From assembly GCF_000092125.1 (NCBI RefSeq), contig NC_014212.1, positions 1,508,001 to 1,572,000 on the forward strand: 64,000 nucleotides of DNA, written 5' to 3'. Source of the stretch: Allomeiothermus silvanus DSM 9946. GTDB taxonomy: Bacteria > Deinococcota > Deinococci > Deinococcales > Thermaceae. Numbering within the stretch: the first letter of the stretch is position 1; each line of letters starts with the position of its first letter. The position numbers were made by a program, and so were the translations under genes. Under the pieces are notes generated by a model. The model ran no database searches. It was not told where the DNA came from and saw only the letters and a list, made by a program, of their open reading frames with translations. Shown one piece after another: positions 47,030 to 63,713 of this stretch.

Positions 47030-48055
47030 CTATCCTTCAGGCATCAGATGAAGGTAGCGCGGATCGAGCGCTACCTCTACGGTTTGGCCTGCCTCGAGCG
47101 CCAACTCGTCTCGGACACGGCGGGGTAGCAGCAGGTCGAGTTCCAAAACCCCGACAAACCTTCCTCGCAGCGCTACCCCTTCGGGCTTCAAAAAAGCCAA
47201 TCTTCCCCGCAAGATATTTTCCTTTGGGCACAAGCCCTCCGTGTAGCCAGGGTGTGCTATGGCTACCTCTTCCGAGCGGATCCCTACCACTACCCGCTTT
47301 CCTGGGCTTGTCCAAGAGGGAGCTACGGCCTGCAGCCTCACCTCCTGGCAGCGCACCCAGGCGATCCCTTGCACTATGACCTCTATCTGGCCTGGCAGAA
47401 GGTTGCGAAATCCCACCAGCCGTGCCGTGGCTAGGTTGGCCGGGCGGGCAAAGACTTCCAGGCCGCTGCCTTGCTGTACCAAGCCGTTGCGATCGAGTAC
47501 GCCTACCCAATCGGCTTGTTGAGCCAGCCAGGGGTCATGGGAGGCCGCCAGTGTCGGTATCCCCAGGGTACGCAGGCGCTCGAGCACCCCTCCGAACACC
47601 TCTTCGCGGGTGGCCACATCCAAGGCGCTGGTGGGCTCATCGAGTAGGAGCAGTTGGGGTTCGCGGGCCAGGGCTCGAGCCAGCGCTACTCGCTGGGCCT
47701 GCCCTCCGGAAAGCTCTCTGGGATACCGCTCAGCCAGGGCTGCAATACCCATGGCCTCCAGGAATTCTAGGCTGCGTTTGCGATGGCGTGGGTGCACCTG
47801 CCCCAGGGCAAAGGCCACGTTCTGCCAGGCTTTGAGGTGGGGAAACAGCGCGAATTGCTGTGGCAGATAGCCTACCGGGCGCTGCTCGGGCGCGAGAGCG
47901 GCATAGGGTTCGCCGCGGGCGGGCAGTAGTCCCGCCAAGGCCCGCAACAAGCTGGTCTTGCCGGTGCCGCTCTCGCCCAGCAGCACGGTAAAGCCCCGCA
48001 CCTCGAGGTCTACTTGGAGGGAGACTGGGTGGCTAAGCGTATAACGGATTTCCAC
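47030..48055 (-). CDS. modC: ModC, molybdate ABC transporter ATPase
   Basis: A 341-aa ATPase of a molybdate/tungstate importer. Walker A GESGTGKTSLLRALAGLLPA, Q-loop GYLPQQFALFPHLKAWQNVAFAL, signature LSGGQAQRVALARALAREPQLLLLDEPTSALDVATREEV, and ASHDPW switch. The C-terminal region (GFRNLLPGQIEVI, VVVGIRSEEVAIAH, LEAGQTVEVALDPRYLHLMPEG) looks like a TOBE/MOP-type sensor domain. It overlaps modB by 46 nt and is the last gene of the operon. Tungstate or another oxyanion is possible, but ModA and the Mop protein favour molybdate. Confidence 0.9.
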   Translation of the reverse strand: MEIRYTLSHPVSLQVDLEVRGFTVLLGESGTGKTSLLRALAGLLPARGEPYAALAPEQRPVGYLPQQFALFPHLKAWQNVAFALGQVHPRHRKRSLEFLEAMGIAALAERYPRELSGGQAQRVALARALAREPQLLLLDEPTSALDVATREEVFGGVLERLRTLGIPTLAASHDPWLAQQADWVGVLDRNGLVQQGSGLEVFARPANLATARLVGFRNLLPGQIEVIVQGIAWVRCQEVRLQAVAPSWTSPGKRVVVGIRSEEVAIAHPGYTEGLCPKENILRGRLAFLKPEGVALRGRFVGVLELDLLLPRRVRDELALEAGQTVEVALDPRYLHLMPEG

Positions 48056-48687
48056 CGGGCCTCCAGTTGCCGGATTGCGTACATCAACACGAAGGAGATC
48101 ATAACCAGAACCAAAGCGGCTAGGTTGGCCTCTTGCAACCGTAAGGCCTGGGTAAGCTCGTAAATATAGATACTCACCACCTGGGTCTCACCGGGCAGGC
48201 TACCGCCGATCATCAGCACCACCCCGAAATCGCCGAAGACATTGGCAAAGACCAGCAAGGTGCCTGAAAGCAGGCCGGGTGCGGCTAAGGGTAGGATAAT
48301 CTCGCGCCAAACCCTCCAGGGAGGGGCTCCCAGGGTACGGGCGGTCTCGAGCAAGGTGGGATCAATGGCCCGGAAGGCCTCGCGGTAGTTGCTGAGGGCA
48401 AACGGCAGGTTAAAGAGCACCAACCCTACCAGCACCCCCTCAAAGGTGAAGGCCAGGCTGAAACCGAACCACTGCTGCAAGGGGCCGTTTTTCCCTAGCA
48501 GGAGCAGGATGTAAAACCCCAGCACGACTGGCGGCAGCACCAGCGGGAGCAGCAACAACGTCTCCAGGATAGCCTTTCCCCGAAAGTCCTTGCGGGCAAA
48601 AAGCCAACCCAGCGGCGCTGCGAAGAGCAGCAAAGTCAGGCAGGTAAGAAAAGCCAGCCGGACGGTGAGCAGCAGGGGCTCGAGCAT
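48010..48687 (-). CDS. modB: ModB, molybdate ABC transporter permease
   Basis: A 225-aa permease with five or six TM segments. Landmarks: LLLTVRLAFLTCLTLLLFAAPLGWLFA, LPLVLPPVVLGFYILLLLG (the PPxVxGxxLL motif of ModB), ALSNYREAFRAIDPTLLETARTLGAPPWRVWREIILPLAAPGLLSGTLLVFANVFGDFGVVLMIGGSLPGETQVVSIYIYELTQA (EAA loop and the typical tail). The gene follows modA by 32 nt. Confidence 0.94.
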   Translation of the reverse strand: MLEPLLLTVRLAFLTCLTLLLFAAPLGWLFARKDFRGKAILETLLLLPLVLPPVVLGFYILLLLGKNGPLQQWFGFSLAFTFEGVLVGLVLFNLPFALSNYREAFRAIDPTLLETARTLGAPPWRVWREIILPLAAPGLLSGTLLVFANVFGDFGVVLMIGGSLPGETQVVSIYIYELTQALRLQEANLAALVLVMISFVLMYAIRQLEARWKSVIRLATQSPSK

Positions 48688-48719: not shown

Positions 48720-49466
48720 TTAGGGTACCTGGTAGCCAAAGGCTTTCAGTATAGTTCGCGCTTTATCCCCTTGGATGTAGTCGTACAGGGCCTTGACCTC
48801 GGGGCGGTTGCGGCCTTTGATGATCACGTAGGCTTGCTCGAGCGGGGGGGCCAGCCGTTCGGGAACCACCCAGACCTTACCCTGTCCTTTGACCGATGCG
48901 GTGAAGGTCAGCGAGTAGGCGGTGAACCCGGCGTCGGCCGCCGCTAGTATGAGCTGCGTAGCTTGGGAGATGTCCTGACCGAAGACCAGCTTGCTGCGCA
49001 GCTTCTCCAACAGCCCCGCCCTTTGCAAGGCTTCTATGGCCGTCCGGCCATAGGGGGCTGTTTCAGGGTTGGAGATGGCGATGCGGGCGATCTTGGGATC
49101 TAGGAGGACGCTCAAGCTGCTGGGGCTAAGGCCTACGCGGTTGGGGATCAGCAGGGCTAGGCGGCCTTTAGCGTACACTCTGAGGGTCCCCGGCTCGGTC
49201 AGGTTGTTACGCTCCAGCGCCTGCGGGAAGCTGGTGTCGGCAGCCATAAACACATCGAAAGGAGCCCCCTGGGTGATTTGCTGGACGAAACCGCCCGAGG
49301 AGCCGAAGCTGGGGGTAACCTTGATATTCGCGTTGTCCTGATTGAAGGCTCTGACGATATCTATAAAGACGTCGCGCAAATTGGCGGCCACCGCGACCCG
49401 CACCTCGGCTTGCTGGGCTGCGGCCAAACCGAGCATCACCACCGCGCTTACAAGAAGTTTTCGCAT
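48720..49466 (-). CDS. modA: ModA, molybdate-binding protein
   Basis: A 248-aa periplasmic-type binding protein. MRKLLVSAVVMLGLAAAQQA is a signal peptide. The mature N-terminus EVRVAVAANLRDVFIDIVRAFNQDNANIKVTPSFGSSGGFVQQITQGAPFDVFMAADTSFPQAL has the classical ModA AAANL...SSGxLxxQIxxGAPxDVFxSAD pattern, although the Ala-Ala-Ser of E. coli differs slightly. IARIAISNPETAPYGRTAIEALQRAGL carries the second oxyanion-binding part. The ATG at 49466 has GGAGGTGAGAGG upstream. The upstream Moco-fold gene ends 4 nt before. Confidence 0.94.
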   Translation of the reverse strand: MRKLLVSAVVMLGLAAAQQAEVRVAVAANLRDVFIDIVRAFNQDNANIKVTPSFGSSGGFVQQITQGAPFDVFMAADTSFPQALERNNLTEPGTLRVYAKGRLALLIPNRVGLSPSSLSVLLDPKIARIAISNPETAPYGRTAIEALQRAGLLEKLRSKLVFGQDISQATQLILAAADAGFTAYSLTFTASVKGQGKVWVVPERLAPPLEQAYVIIKGRNRPEVKALYDYIQGDKARTILKAFGYQVP

Positions 49467-49470
49467 CCTC

Positions 49471-49977
49471 TCACCTCCTTTGTGAAGAACCATCGGCGTC
49501 GCGAACCTCGAGCCGGATCACCCCGCTGACATAACGCCCGCCCCGCTTATCGCCGGGAACCACCAAACGGAAGGGTCCTCGCTCCCCCTGCAAGGGCTTA
49601 CCGTCTTCCTCCCAGGCCAAGAGCACGGGCTGGGCGCCGAACTCGGGATCTAGCTCAGCCCAAGAGAAAATCACCGTGTAGCCGTCTTTGGCTGTAGCAA
49701 GTACGAACTTGCGCAGCTTGTCGTTTTTTCGGTTCTCCAGCTCAAGCCCCGCCTGCTGGAGCAGGGCAGCTAGCCGCACCCCTTTGTAGGTGTGCTGCTC
49801 GAGGCCTTGGCCAGATAAAAAGCTCACCGTTAGGGTTTCAGCCGCAAACCTTTGCAGATCGGTTAGGGAGAGCTTTGCAGGCCGCTCGACCAGCCCGGTC
49901 AGCTCTACCGTATCGCTGCTTTGTGCTATAGCCAGCGCCGAGAAGACCAAAACAACAACCGATAGCAGCCGCTTCAT
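49471..49977 (-). CDS. Exported molybdopterin-binding-fold protein, cysteine-free
   Basis: A 168-aa protein with a signal peptide (MKRLLSVVVLVFSALAIAQ). The mature part resembles the sulfite-oxidase-like Moco-binding domain: VELTGLVERPAKLSLTDLQRFAAETLTVSFLSGQGLEQHTYKGVRLAALLQQAGL, then TAKDGYTVIFSWAELDPEFGAQPVLLAWEEDGKPLQGERGPFRLVVPGDKRGGRYVSGVIRLEV (the GPxRLVxPGDxRxxRxVxxVxxIEV pattern). No cysteine is present, so the Mo-coordinating Cys of sulfite oxidases is missing. It may bind the cofactor or molybdate differently, or act as a scaffold. It sits between mop and modA in the operon. Confidence 0.85.
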   Translation of the reverse strand: MKRLLSVVVLVFSALAIAQSSDTVELTGLVERPAKLSLTDLQRFAAETLTVSFLSGQGLEQHTYKGVRLAALLQQAGLELENRKNDKLRKFVLATAKDGYTVIFSWAELDPEFGAQPVLLAWEEDGKPLQGERGPFRLVVPGDKRGGRYVSGVIRLEVRDADGSSQRR

Positions 49978-50001: not shown

Positions 50002-50181
50002 TCATTTAATCACCACGATCACCTCTTTGCCCGGCTCCAGGCCTAAAGATTCAGCGGCGGTGCGGGTAATGGCGGAGACGATCTGGTGCTCGCCCACCCG
50101 CACGGTTACTTCCGCCATCACCTCGCCATACTTGACCGATTGCACTGTACCGGGTAGCTGGTTGCGCGCGCTGATTCGCAT
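50002..50181 (-). CDS. Molbindin-like Mop/TOBE protein
   Basis: A 59-aa single TOBE (Mop) domain: MRISARNQLPGTVQSVKYGEV followed by MAEVTVRVGEHQIVSAITR and TAAESLGLEPGKEVIVVIK. The family pattern SARNxLxGxVxxVxxGxVxAxVxVxxxGxxxxAxITxxSxxxLxLxxGxxVxAxIK is clear. Such proteins oligomerise and store molybdate in the cytoplasm, or sense it. The ATG at 50181 has GGAGG 5 nt upstream. First structural gene after the operator. Confidence 0.93.
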   Translation of the reverse strand: MRISARNQLPGTVQSVKYGEVMAEVTVRVGEHQIVSAITRTAAESLGLEPGKEVIVVIK

Positions 50182-50191
50182 AGGGCCTCCG

Positions 50192-50229
50192 ATAGTCACA
50201 CTGTAACCTAAAAGTTACACTGTGACTAT
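50192..50229. promoter_or_regulatory. 16-bp-arm inverted repeat, putative operator of the molybdate operon
   Basis: ATAGTCACACTGTAAC (50192-50207) and GTTACACTGTGACTAT (50214-50229) are inverted copies with one mismatch, separated by 6 nt. The repeat lies directly upstream of the mop ribosome binding site and overlaps the TAG stop of the PadR-type gene. The position and symmetry suggest an operator for the mod operon. It does not match the usual E. coli ModE site (TATAT-rich). Confidence 0.7.
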
Positions 50230-50789
50230 AGCCGGGAGGAACCCTCCGCCAAAAGCCGCTCGACGAAACGTAACCCCGCCCTGGCGTTCTCGAGCCGCCA
50301 CAACAAGGCGATCCGTCCCACCCCTTTTTCTTGGGGTTCCTGCGCCTCGAGGGTATCCAGGGCTTTTTGGTAGTGCTCCCGTTGGGCCAACAGCAGCGGT
50401 TTCCAGTCGGCCCCGCTCCTGGACAAGAAGGCCAGCTTAAGCCGCAGGTCGCTGCGTCCTAGGCGCAGACGGGTCACCGGCGCATACAGCCAGGCCCTTA
50501 CGGCCTTTCTCCCCGCCGGGGTCAGCGCGAACACCGTGCGCTGTGGACCGCTCAGCCCAGGCTCCTGGCGGACAGCCTGGGCTAGTCCGGCCTCGGTGAG
50601 GTGTTCGAGGGTACGGTACACCTGGGGGCGCTGGATCTTCCAGATCTCCCCCAACCCGCCCCCAGCAGCAAAGAGGCTCGCTATTTGAAAGCCGTGGGAT
50701 TCTCCTTCAGCGAGCGCGGCGAGCACCGCCCAATCGCTGGTGGATAGGTTGGAGAGGACCTGTTTTTGCGGCTTTTTTAGGGACTTCAT
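50226..50789 (-). CDS. PadR-type transcriptional regulator
   Basis: A 187-aa winged-helix protein. N-terminal LSTSDWAVLAALAEGESHGFQIASLF (the PadR xxxxxxLGLLxxGPxHGYxI pattern), then IWKIQRPQVYRTLEHLTEAGLAQAVRQEPGLSGPQRTVFALTPAGRKAVRAWLYAPV. The C-terminal helical part (LKLAFLSRSGADWKPLLLAQREHYQKALDTLEAQ) is the dimerisation domain of the PadR-s2 class. Its gene is directly upstream of mop on the same strand, and its stop codon is inside the inverted repeat. It is a good candidate for the regulator of the molybdate operon, but no direct evidence is available. Confidence 0.9.
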   Translation of the reverse strand: MKSLKKPQKQVLSNLSTSDWAVLAALAEGESHGFQIASLFAAGGGLGEIWKIQRPQVYRTLEHLTEAGLAQAVRQEPGLSGPQRTVFALTPAGRKAVRAWLYAPVTRLRLGRSDLRLKLAFLSRSGADWKPLLLAQREHYQKALDTLEAQEPQEKGVGRIALLWRLENARAGLRFVERLLAEGSSRL

Positions 50790-50827
50790 CCTTGTAGCCT
50801 AGCAAAAAGCCCCTAACCTATAGAAGG

Positions 50828-50833
50828 TACACT
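50828..50833 (+). promoter_or_regulatory. Leaderless-type -10 box (TACACT) for trmO
   Basis: TACACT ends 6 nt before the trmO ATG. The longer word TACACTGT is also present in both arms of the operator at 50192-50229. Confidence 0.45.
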
Positions 50834-50839
50834 GTATCT

Positions 50840-51325
50840 ATGCGGGAAACCGTTTCGTACACCCCCATCGGGGTGGTGCGATCCCCCTTTTCTGACGAGG
50901 CGGGTATGCCCATCCAGTCGGTGGCTGCGCCAGGGGTAAGCGGGCAAGTGGAGGTCTTCGAGGAATTTGCTGAAGGTCTTCAAGACCTCGAGGGCTTTTC
51001 CCACCTGATTTTGCTCTGCCATCTGCACCGTATCCGCGAGGGTGCTTTGCGGGTGGTGCCGTTTTTGGACACCCAGCCGCGCGGGGTCTTCGCTACCCGT
51101 AGCCCCAAGCGGCCTAACCCCATCGGGTTCACCATCGTTCGCCCAGAGCGCCTAGAGGGGCGAGTGCTGCACATCCTCGAGCACGATCTTTTGGACGGAA
51201 CCCCAGTGCTGGACATCAAGCCCTACATGCCCCTATTTGACGTGCGGCATACCGAACAGATCGGCTGGTTCAGGGATCGGCTCTACGCACTTGGGAAGGT
51301 GCGTTCAGATGACCGCTTCAAATAA
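50840..51325 (+). CDS. trmO: TrmO, tRNA t6A37 N6-methyltransferase family
   Basis: A 161-aa TsaA/YaeB/TrmO-family enzyme that methylates t6A37 in tRNA-Thr to m6t6A in E. coli. Landmarks: YTPIGVVRSPFSDEAGMPIQS, FEEFAEGLQDLEGFSHLILLCHLHRI, GVFATRSPKRPNPIGFTIVRPERLEGRVLHILEHDLLDGTPVLDIKPYMPLFD. RSPxRPNPIG and DGTPVLDIKPYxP are diagnostic. The short C-terminus (FRDRLYALGKVRSDDRFK) lacks the long extension of the E. coli enzyme, as in archaeal and thermophile homologues. Strong terminator follows. Confidence 0.93.
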   Translation: MRETVSYTPIGVVRSPFSDEAGMPIQSVAAPGVSGQVEVFEEFAEGLQDLEGFSHLILLCHLHRIREGALRVVPFLDTQPRGVFATRSPKRPNPIGFTIVRPERLEGRVLHILEHDLLDGTPVLDIKPYMPLFDVRHTEQIGWFRDRLYALGKVRSDDRFK

Positions 51326-51863: not shown

Positions 51864-51946
51864 TGTAATCGGTCAACACATTTGAGACTCTTTGAGGAAC
51901 CGACTCCTCTTGCATCTTAGCCAAAAACTCCAGCGGAGCAAGACCC
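51864..51946. repeat. 83-bp duplicate of the IS left end
   Basis: These 83 bp (TGTAATCGGTC... to ...GCAAGACCC) match the first 83 bp of the IS and lie directly before the full copy at 51947. The 5-bp target duplication GACGG lies outside this fragment (51859-51863) and after the right end (53087-53091), so the fragment is part of the inserted unit. Confidence 0.92.
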
Positions 51947-53009
51947 TGTAATCGGTCAACACATTTGAGACTCTTTGAGGAACCGACTCCTCTTGCATCT
52001 TAGCCAAAAACTCCAGCGGAGCAAGACCCCCCAGGGCCATGTGAGGCCTTCGGCGGTTGTAGTAGTCCAGGTAGGTATCCAGCTCTGCCTGCAGCTCGCT
52101 GAGCGGGGTGGGCAAAGGCCGGGTGTAGAACTCCTCCTTGAAGGTCCGCTGCATCCGCTCCACGTGACCATTGAGTTTAGGACTCCTCGGCGGTAGCACA
52201 AACAAGGCAATCCCCAGAGCACAGCAGGCCTCCTCAAACTCGGCCATGAACTCGCTGCCCCCATCCACCTGGATGGCCCGGATGGGAAAAGGGGCCCTGG
52301 CCAGAAGCAAGGACAAGAACCCCTCAGAAAGCTTAGCCGTGGCCCGGCTGTGCACCTCCGCCAGGACAAACCGGCTATGGAGGTCAATCGCCGAGAAGTG
52401 CTTGACCATGCTTCCCGGTCCTAAGGTCAGGGTGAGGGTGTCCACCTGGACCAGGTCCCCAGGAGCCCTGGCCTCGTATCCTCGGGGCTTCCTTTTGGCG
52501 TAGGGCCGGTTTACCCTTCGCTTTAGCTTCCCTCTTTGAGTCCGGGCCAGGTAGCCGGCCACGCTCTCGATACGTCGGTGCTTCTCCAGGTAGGCCAGGA
52601 TGCGCCCCACCGTGCGTTCGCTCATCTGGAAACCCTCCTTGCGGAGGGTAAGCCAGATGGACCAGCGTCCCCAGGTGGGGTTTTCCTTGCGGAGAGTTTC
52701 TATTCTAATGAGCAGCCCTGGGGTCCAGTGGACCTTTGTGCGCAGGTGCTTAGGGCGGCGGGAGCGGGGTTTGAGTCCAGCCAGGCCCTTTTCTTTTAGG
52801 GCTTTTTGCCAGCGGTGGTAGGTGGCCCGGCTGATCCCGACCAGGTCCTGGATCTCCTTCCAGCTCTTTTTACTTTCACGCAGGGCTTTGACCAGTCGGA
52901 GCTTGCGCAGACGTTCCTGGACCTCTGGGTCGCTTGCGTTGGCCTCGGCCAGCCTCTGTGCTTGTCTAGCGCCTCTCCATATCTCTCGGCCAACGGTGGT
53001 AAACTGCAC
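51873..53009 (-). CDS. IS481-like DDE transposase, copy 2 (extended C-terminus)
   Basis: Identical to the copy-1 transposase through residue ~354 (...VSNVLTDY), with the same HTH region, DDE triad and GTG start with GGAGG. Because the element has no stop codon of its own, the frame runs on into the 83-bp duplicate of the left end, in a different frame (RVLLRWSFWLRCKRSRF and so on), and stops at 51873. The total is 378 aa. Whether the extra tail affects activity is unknown. Confidence 0.9.
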   Translation of the reverse strand: MQFTTVGREIWRGARQAQRLAEANASDPEVQERLRKLRLVKALRESKKSWKEIQDLVGISRATYHRWQKALKEKGLAGLKPRSRRPKHLRTKVHWTPGLLIRIETLRKENPTWGRWSIWLTLRKEGFQMSERTVGRILAYLEKHRRIESVAGYLARTQRGKLKRRVNRPYAKRKPRGYEARAPGDLVQVDTLTLTLGPGSMVKHFSAIDLHSRFVLAEVHSRATAKLSEGFLSLLLARAPFPIRAIQVDGGSEFMAEFEEACCALGIALFVLPPRSPKLNGHVERMQRTFKEEFYTRPLPTPLSELQAELDTYLDYYNRRRPHMALGGLAPLEFLAKMQEESVPQRVSNVLTDYRVLLRWSFWLRCKRSRFLKESQMC

Positions 53010-57678: not shown

Positions 57679-58032
57679 GGGCGCGACCTGGCTTCGACGG
57701 GGGTCGCCAAAGGTGTGGTGGCGTGCCGAGGTGGTCGGTGGCCTCGTAAAACACCGGCAAAGCCATAACTGGCAACACTCAGCGTTCTTACGCTCTCGCT
57801 GCTTAAGTCAGCGACGTTCCTAGCAAGCCCCGCCGTTGGCTCGGCTAGCGAACGACCTAAAAACGGCTAGCCCGCGCGAGGCTCCGTAAGCGTTGGGCGA
57901 AACTTTACGGAGCTTGGCCTAGAGTCCCTGCTGATGGGGAAACTCCAGGCGAGAATCTAAACATCAGCTACGCACGTAGAAGCCCACTGGAGGGACTTTC
58001 GGACGGGAGTTCGATTCTCCCCGCGTCCACCA
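57679..58032 (+). ncRNA. ssrA: tmRNA (ssrA)
   Basis: A 354-nt transfer-messenger RNA for ribosome rescue. The 5' end GGGCGCG pairs with CGCGTCC before the encoded ACCA at the 3' end, giving a 7-bp acceptor stem; the 3' T arm GGGAGTTCGATTCTCCC and the 5' GGCTTCGACGGGGGTCGCC match tmRNA consensus. The tag reading frame ends ...TACGCTCTCGCTGCTTAA (57771-57806 if it resumes at GGC), encoding GNTQRSYALAA; the YALAA end is the usual degradation signal. Several pseudoknot-like complementary runs follow (e.g. GCTCCGTAAG with CTTTACGGAGC). Confidence 0.95.
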
Positions 58033-63627: not shown

Positions 63628-63713
63628 GCCGGGGTGGCGGAATGGTAGACGCTACGGACTTAAAATCCGTTGGGGGAAACCCCGTGTGGGTTCGAGTCCC
63701 ATCCCCGGCACCA
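63628..63713 (+). tRNA. tRNA-Leu (anticodon TAA)
   Basis: An 86-nt class II tRNA with encoded CCA. The acceptor stem GCCGGGG pairs with CCCCGGC, the anticodon arm is ACGGA-CTTAAAA-TCCGT with anticodon TAA at 63661-63663, a long variable arm (GGGGGAAACCCC) marks a leucine tRNA, and the T loop is GGTTCGAGTCCC. Confidence 0.97.

Follow-up and report, generated by a model that had tools for sequence, protein, structure and literature searches.

Genome comparison indicates that a PadR-family regulator encoded beside the molybdate transport (mod) genes of Thermaceae probably represses them through a palindrome at their promoter, consensus TAGTTACANTGTAACTA, with molybdenum status as the signal and in the role that a Moco riboswitch fills in other members of the family. 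Bacterial molybdenum control rests mainly on ModE and the Moco riboswitch, and if a PadR protein acts through a defined operator on mod, on molybdoenzyme genes and on those of a second transporter, it would join them as a further class of molybdenum regulator. Inferred in this account are the binding of PadR to DNA, the repression, the identity of the signal and the direct binding of a ligand by PadR. That this PadR clade itself binds a molybdenum species, replaces the Moco riboswitch and governs, within Deinococcota, a small regulon of mod, a sulfite dehydrogenase and a MolABC-like transporter is a tentative proposal, to which we give slightly less than an even chance.

The window, that is, the whole stretch of DNA analysed, spans 64 kb (G000:C1:1508001-1572000) and comes from a genome whose three contigs total 3.72 Mb. 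On its minus strand, padR (50226..50789), which encodes a winged-helix regulator of 187 aa (PF03551, 39.6 bits, cut-off 27), is followed by mop (50002..50181), with an ATG start and a 59-aa Mop/TOBE product (TIGR00638, 70.0 bits, cut-off 55), by the gene for a PF00174-domain protein of 168 aa that looks exported (49471..49977), by modA for the molybdate-binding protein (48720..49493; TIGR01256, 187.3 bits, cut-off 62.5), by modB for the molybdate permease (48010..48687; TIGR02141, 209.3 bits, cut-off 182.6) and by a modC-type ATPase gene (47030..48055; PF00005, 90.2 bits; TIGR02142, 140.4 bits, below the cut-off of 285.05). The C-terminal TOBE match of the ATPase is marginal (22.5 bits versus a cut-off of 22.3). 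The divergent trmO (50840..51325, plus strand; TIGR00104, 131.6 bits) lies outside the conserved arrangement. The PF00174 protein has no Mo-co dimerisation match and no cysteine in its translation; in normal molybdoenzymes of PF00174 type molybdenum is bound via a cysteine, and with both features absent the protein is probably no normal molybdoenzyme.

The AlphaFold2 model of the PadR protein (mean pLDDT 92.4) shows a winged helix with C-terminal helices, and its nearest folds are PadR proteins. The best structural match is Rv1176c of the PadR family (8ioi; Z 15.3, rmsd 4.6, 170 aligned), and Bacillus subtilis PadR with operator DNA (5x11) is alike in fold (Z 13.4, rmsd 1.8, 91 aligned); a PF03551 winged helix with a helical C-terminal region is common to the family, including B. 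subtilis PadR, VanR, AphA and Rv1176c. Searches at E <= 0.001 gave no match of the protein to the ModE model (TIGR00637) in NCBIfam and none to HTH_1 or TOBE in Pfam. The locus resembles a ModE system in outline, with a regulator, an operator before modABC and more targets at molybdoenzyme genes, but ModE combines a LysR-like ModE domain with TOBE, whereas the regulator here belongs to the PadR family.

A sequence-only reading of the window had claimed a 38-bp inverted repeat with 16-bp arms and one mismatch, lying over the padR stop and beside the mop ribosome-binding site, and this is what we find. The arms (50192-50207 and 50214-50229, 16 nt each) are 15/16 complementary around a 6-nt spacer, the repeat (50192-50229) overlaps the padR stop codon at 50226-50228, and the GGAGG of mop (50186-50190) sits just downstream of its end. 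It is the sole inverted repeat of the 64 kb with arms of at least 15/16 and a loop of at most 20, and one of equal quality arose in 1 of 100 first-order Markov-simulated windows. Both arms are palindromic in themselves, around GTNACANTGTNAC, a motif matched with at most one mismatch at two places in the window, namely the two arms, against 0.40 expected, a count of two also being reached by 7 of 100 shuffles. Because each arm is palindromic, the repeat is better seen as two adjacent operators than as a single long one, and the natural reading is two putative 17-bp operators of consensus TAGTTACANTGTAACTA, 19 bp apart: a mop-proximal one at 50193..50209 (TAGTCACACTGTAACCT on the plus strand; 13/16) and a second at 50212..50228 (AAGTTACACTGTGACTA on the plus strand; 14/16), which overlaps the padR stop and the predicted -10 box of mop-mod.

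Three 17-mers in the window have at least 12 matches to the operator consensus, the third being AAGGTACACTGTATCTA in the gap between padR and trmO (50824..50840; 13/16), a score reached at a frequency of 0.0002 in 20,000 composition-matched random stretches. It overlaps the -10 box of trmO in TACACT-N6-ATG, an arrangement typical of leaderless promoters. The third core proposed at 50828-50835 is present and statistically notable, but it is weak and confined to the two genomes of the genus; the corresponding site of the sister genome G001 scores 11/16 (frequency 0.01), and trmO itself was found at E <= 1e-20 in 2 of 50 Thermaceae genomes, both of this genus. The site could act as an additional weak operator, or it could be chiefly a -10 box.

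The mop-modABC promoter is predicted from consensus matches only, with a -10 box TATAGT at 50225..50230 and a -35 box TTGGCG at 50247..50252, both on the minus strand with a 16-bp spacer, the -10 box overlapping operator 2. Of the 19 padR-mod loci in Thermaceae, 15 have the same TATAGT-like box lying over the first bases of their operator. Two others (G007 and G014) have instead a TATAAT starting 15 nt upstream of the operator, so that transcription would start at or next to it, and the remaining two (G001 and G035) have neither. This geometry fits repression by blocking of RNA polymerase: PadR, probably as a dimer, would bind the 17-bp palindrome, which overlaps the -10/+1 region of the mod operon, and would thereby block transcription. 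Most Meiothermus have one perfect operator, in place of which the window's genus appears to use two weaker tandem ones, and their distance of 19 bp is as expected for adjacent binding by two PadR dimers. The signal would most likely be molybdenum status, read as molybdate, tungstate or molybdenum cofactor, with uptake shut off when molybdenum is sufficient. Autoregulation of padR does not seem general, given that 18 of the 20 genomes, all but G000 and G001, have no operator match of at least 11/16 in the 120 nt upstream of padR; the 10/16 site of G035 also lies upstream of padR, since padR and modA are divergent there.

Conservation of the repeat upstream of mod had been named as the check on the sequence-only reading, and it came out in favour. 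A PadR relative occurs in 20 of 50 Thermaceae genomes, and a search by alignment across 111 Deinococcota genomes found 25 with a PadR match at E <= 1e-10, five of them new. Three of the five (G057, G089 and G090; profile hits at E 4e-11 to 3e-18) were excluded as by eye not mod-adjacent, and their best operator score is 11/16; a weak second PadR of G005 (E 1.5e-5) was left out of the count as well. This gives 22 PadR genomes, the 20 Thermaceae plus G096 and G107, of which G019 is untestable, its contig ending inside padR; a close modB match was not found elsewhere in this fragmented assembly. In all 21 genomes where the sequence runs past padR, 19 of them Thermaceae, padR neighbours modA (or mop ... 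modA), and the operator, letter-perfect in 14, occupies the gap that separates padR from the operon's first gene, although the 21 are not independent, because most loci come from one genus and shared ancestry inflates the counts. Among the 19 Thermaceae sites, 13 score 16/16 and that of G009 15/16, G000, G005 and G011 pair a best site of 14/16 with a second 19-22 bp away, and G001 has two 12/16 sites 19 bp apart. The last, between the divergent padR and modA of G035, is weak at 10/16, which is background level (unrelated, site-free upstream regions score 7-10), and it was counted on inspection by eye, having the right position between the two genes, a preserved core and complementarity at 6 of its 8 arm pairs. 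Outside Thermaceae, G096 (16/16) and G107 (14/16) have padR, site and modA in the same order; modB follows modA in G107, and tblastn detected none near modA within the 10 kb extracted from G096.

A paired-change test drew on 19 distinct sites, whose arms show complementarity in 119 of 152 pairs; the five two-sided complementary arm changes are no excess, a number reached by 801 of 5,000 shuffles. Beyond the phylum, no PadR relative at E <= 1e-20 was found among the eight candidates scored per genome in 390 genomes. Searching a contig database for the PadR locus returned 11 loci, ten from Meiothermus and one from a Thermaceae bacterium, and a plasmid search gave nine records with distant PadRs of at most 46% identity.

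The operator also follows padR at the scale of whole genomes. Allowing at most two mismatches, 50 Thermaceae genomes contain 26 sites in 18 genomes, all with PadR (G001 and G035 have PadR and no operator at this threshold), while 0 of the 30 PadR-less genomes has one and the reversed-pattern control gave 0 sites in the 50. G002 and G003 have a close modB and neither PadR nor an operator, and G018, a genome of genus g3, has neither PadR nor a close modB and keeps SorT at 92% identity, with no operator upstream of the gene (best 10/16). In the wider phylum, genomes without the padR-mod pair hold seven operator matches in five genomes (G072, G073, G092, G097 and G110), fewer than the 12 sites of the reversed pattern there; viewed by eye in three of the five (G073, G092 and G097), the matches have no molybdenum neighbour.

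Where PadR is absent, an RNA switch is often found in its place. The Moco riboswitch (RF01055) immediately precedes modA in 9 of 10 PadR-less loci scanned with Rfam in genus g4, which we infer to be Thermus, and it is present in the named control Thermus composti. Overall, 24 of 50 Thermaceae carry it (23 of 27 g4 genomes and the single g5 genome), and in each of these a copy shares a contig with the modB match and sits about 1 kb to its 5' side. Across 111 Deinococcota it was found in 27 genomes and in 0 of the 22 with PadR, the searches of more than 40 genomes having used stricter filters with which weak matches may be lost. It was not found above the gathering score in the window or in the rest of its genome. 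In G035, a g4 genome, RF01055 was not found and PadR and the palindrome occur instead; six genomes (G002, G003, G018, G034, G040 and G041) have neither riboswitch nor PadR. From this complementary distribution the PadR protein switch seems to replace the Moco RNA switch at the mod operon, doing the job that the riboswitch would do before mod in most g4 genomes. The two occupy corresponding places upstream of modA and differ in kind, one being an RNA aptamer in the leader and the other a putative protein switch at the promoter. Deinococcus-Thermus members are noted in the available part of an earlier report on the Moco riboswitch (PMC2408646).

Of the 26 Thermaceae sites, 17 are at padR-mod and nine are remote. 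Six of the nine stand in front of a SorT-like sulfite dehydrogenase gene, beginning 74-103 nt ahead of its inferred start; that of G015 is divergent (50% identity) and still carries the operator. The one protein examined by profile libraries, from G013, combines PF00174 with a Mo-co dimerisation domain, matches the SorT model at E 7e-74 (248.9 bits, under the cut-off of 570) and has sulfite oxidase 6y0k as its best solved match (E 8e-148); its gene is followed by a cytochrome c gene with a sub-cut-off SorB match. A further site, in G005, precedes an operon for a binding protein, a FecCD permease and an ATPase, ending 14 nt short of the earliest candidate start. The permease is nearest to HI1471 (2nq2; 215 bits, next 162), and for the binding protein HI_1472 ranks third among solved matches at 53 bits, the first being 4pag at 128 bits. 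We take these two Haemophilus proteins to be the molybdate/tungstate transporter components MolB (HI1471) and MolA (HI_1472), so that this remote site would precede a MolABC-like, molybdenum-related transporter. The other two, at the start of an SDR gene in G000 and on G012:C3, have no evident molybdenum link. Taken together, conservation at mod and remote copies at molybdenum-related genes support the PadR-linked operator before the molybdate operon.

The sorT branch of this regulon is patchy, because nine PadR genomes with SorT-type genes (G004, G006, G007, G008, G010, G014, G016, G017 and G021) have no operator there, their upstream regions scoring 10/16 or less. In G000, G001 and G011 the sulfite-oxidase relatives are all distant and lack the operator, and the same scan produced no hit in the G005 stretch. 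All six operator-bearing sorT promoters (L075, L076, L077, L078, L079 and L080) share a second inverted repeat, ATACC-N6-GGGTA, at a fixed distance, starting 22 nt before the operator and ending 6 nt from it. Its exact form is absent from 13 other sorT-type upstream regions scanned, and a related TATACCC...GAGTATG stretch occurs in the sorT alignment in G004, G006 and G018. The repeat is reminiscent of CsoR/CstR-type operators, so that sulfite oxidation may be under double control.

The prevalence of sulfite dehydrogenase genes among the targets bears on the nature of the signal. PadR could control mod through the operator and yet respond to a signal other than molybdenum, such as redox state, a sulfur species or an aromatic compound, in which case sulfite oxidation would be the real theme. 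Six of the nine remote sites stand at genes that are also sulfur genes, and the ligands named for PadR proteins in the accessible parts of two reports are phenolic acids and polycyclic and azaaromatic compounds, that is, phenolic or planar aromatic molecules and not oxyanions (PMC9971707, PMC4793209). However, every one of the 21 testable genomes keeps the molybdate transporter as the target, a MolABC-like transporter lies behind one of the remote sites, and the corresponding place in 24 other Thermaceae holds a Moco riboswitch. We therefore regard a non-molybdenum signal as unlikely.

As to which protein would sense molybdenum, Mop had been put forward as the partner of PadR, which the distribution does not bear out: a Mop-family match (TIGR00638) occurs in 2 of 50 Thermaceae genomes against 20 of 50 for PadR, ruling Mop out as an obligatory partner. 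A broader version, in which Mop or the TOBE domain of ModC senses molybdate and passes the signal to PadR by protein contact, can point to mop as the first gene of the operon in the window's genus and to the marginal TOBE match of the window's ModC, but PadR and operator persist without Mop, and we consider it barely plausible.

The statement that the locus has no ModE holds for the locus itself and not for the genome, which encodes a standalone ModE-N-like protein of 115 aa about 0.9 Mb away (G000:C1:642280-642549; L083:3730-4077), far from mod and without a TOBE match. It scores 71.6 bits against TIGR00637, under the cut-off of 98.5, and similar matches of 62-75 bits, all below that cut-off, occur in 21 of 50 Thermaceae genomes. 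Such a protein might bind the palindrome and leave the adjacent padR incidental, and its presence in so many Thermaceae, the window's genome among them, would allow this; yet G005 and G035 have PadR and the site with no TIGR00637 match at E <= 0.001, whereas G002, G003 and G018 have the ModE-like protein and no site. With a distribution that does not match that of the operator, the ModE-N-like protein was rejected as the palindrome binder, a role we hold to be very improbable for it. Since Mop is dispensable and the ModE-like distribution is mismatched, the sensor of molybdenum status would be PadR itself or some partner.

A molybdenum signal would, if true, be a type of ligand unlike those named for PadR proteins in the parts of the literature available to us; the named ligands are aromatic, whereas padR here is linked to molybdate transport and molybdoenzyme genes. 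Searching the open-access literature by title and abstract opening, we found no paper tying PadR to molybdate uptake. The nearest parallel is the azaaromatic yjdF riboswitch, for which the accessible part of PMC4793209 gives a PadR gene as the commonest element where the riboswitch is absent, read as takeover by a protein; the case is also found in the review PMC9971707. The likeness lies in a PadR in place of a riboswitch; the mod case differs in the gene, the riboswitch class and the aromatic nature of the yjdF ligand. The mod operon would offer a compact natural substitution between protein and riboswitch at one operon, among close relatives and in cultured thermophiles, and the consensus TAGTTACANTGTAACTA makes the regulon directly searchable.

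Other features of the window include an integrase-type transposase ORF (51873-53009), which adjoins a cytochrome gene, and a stretch of about 80 bp at the end of this ORF (around 51866-52030) that by eye is doubled in tandem. The window also holds a tmRNA at 57679-58032 and a tRNA gene at 63628-63710.
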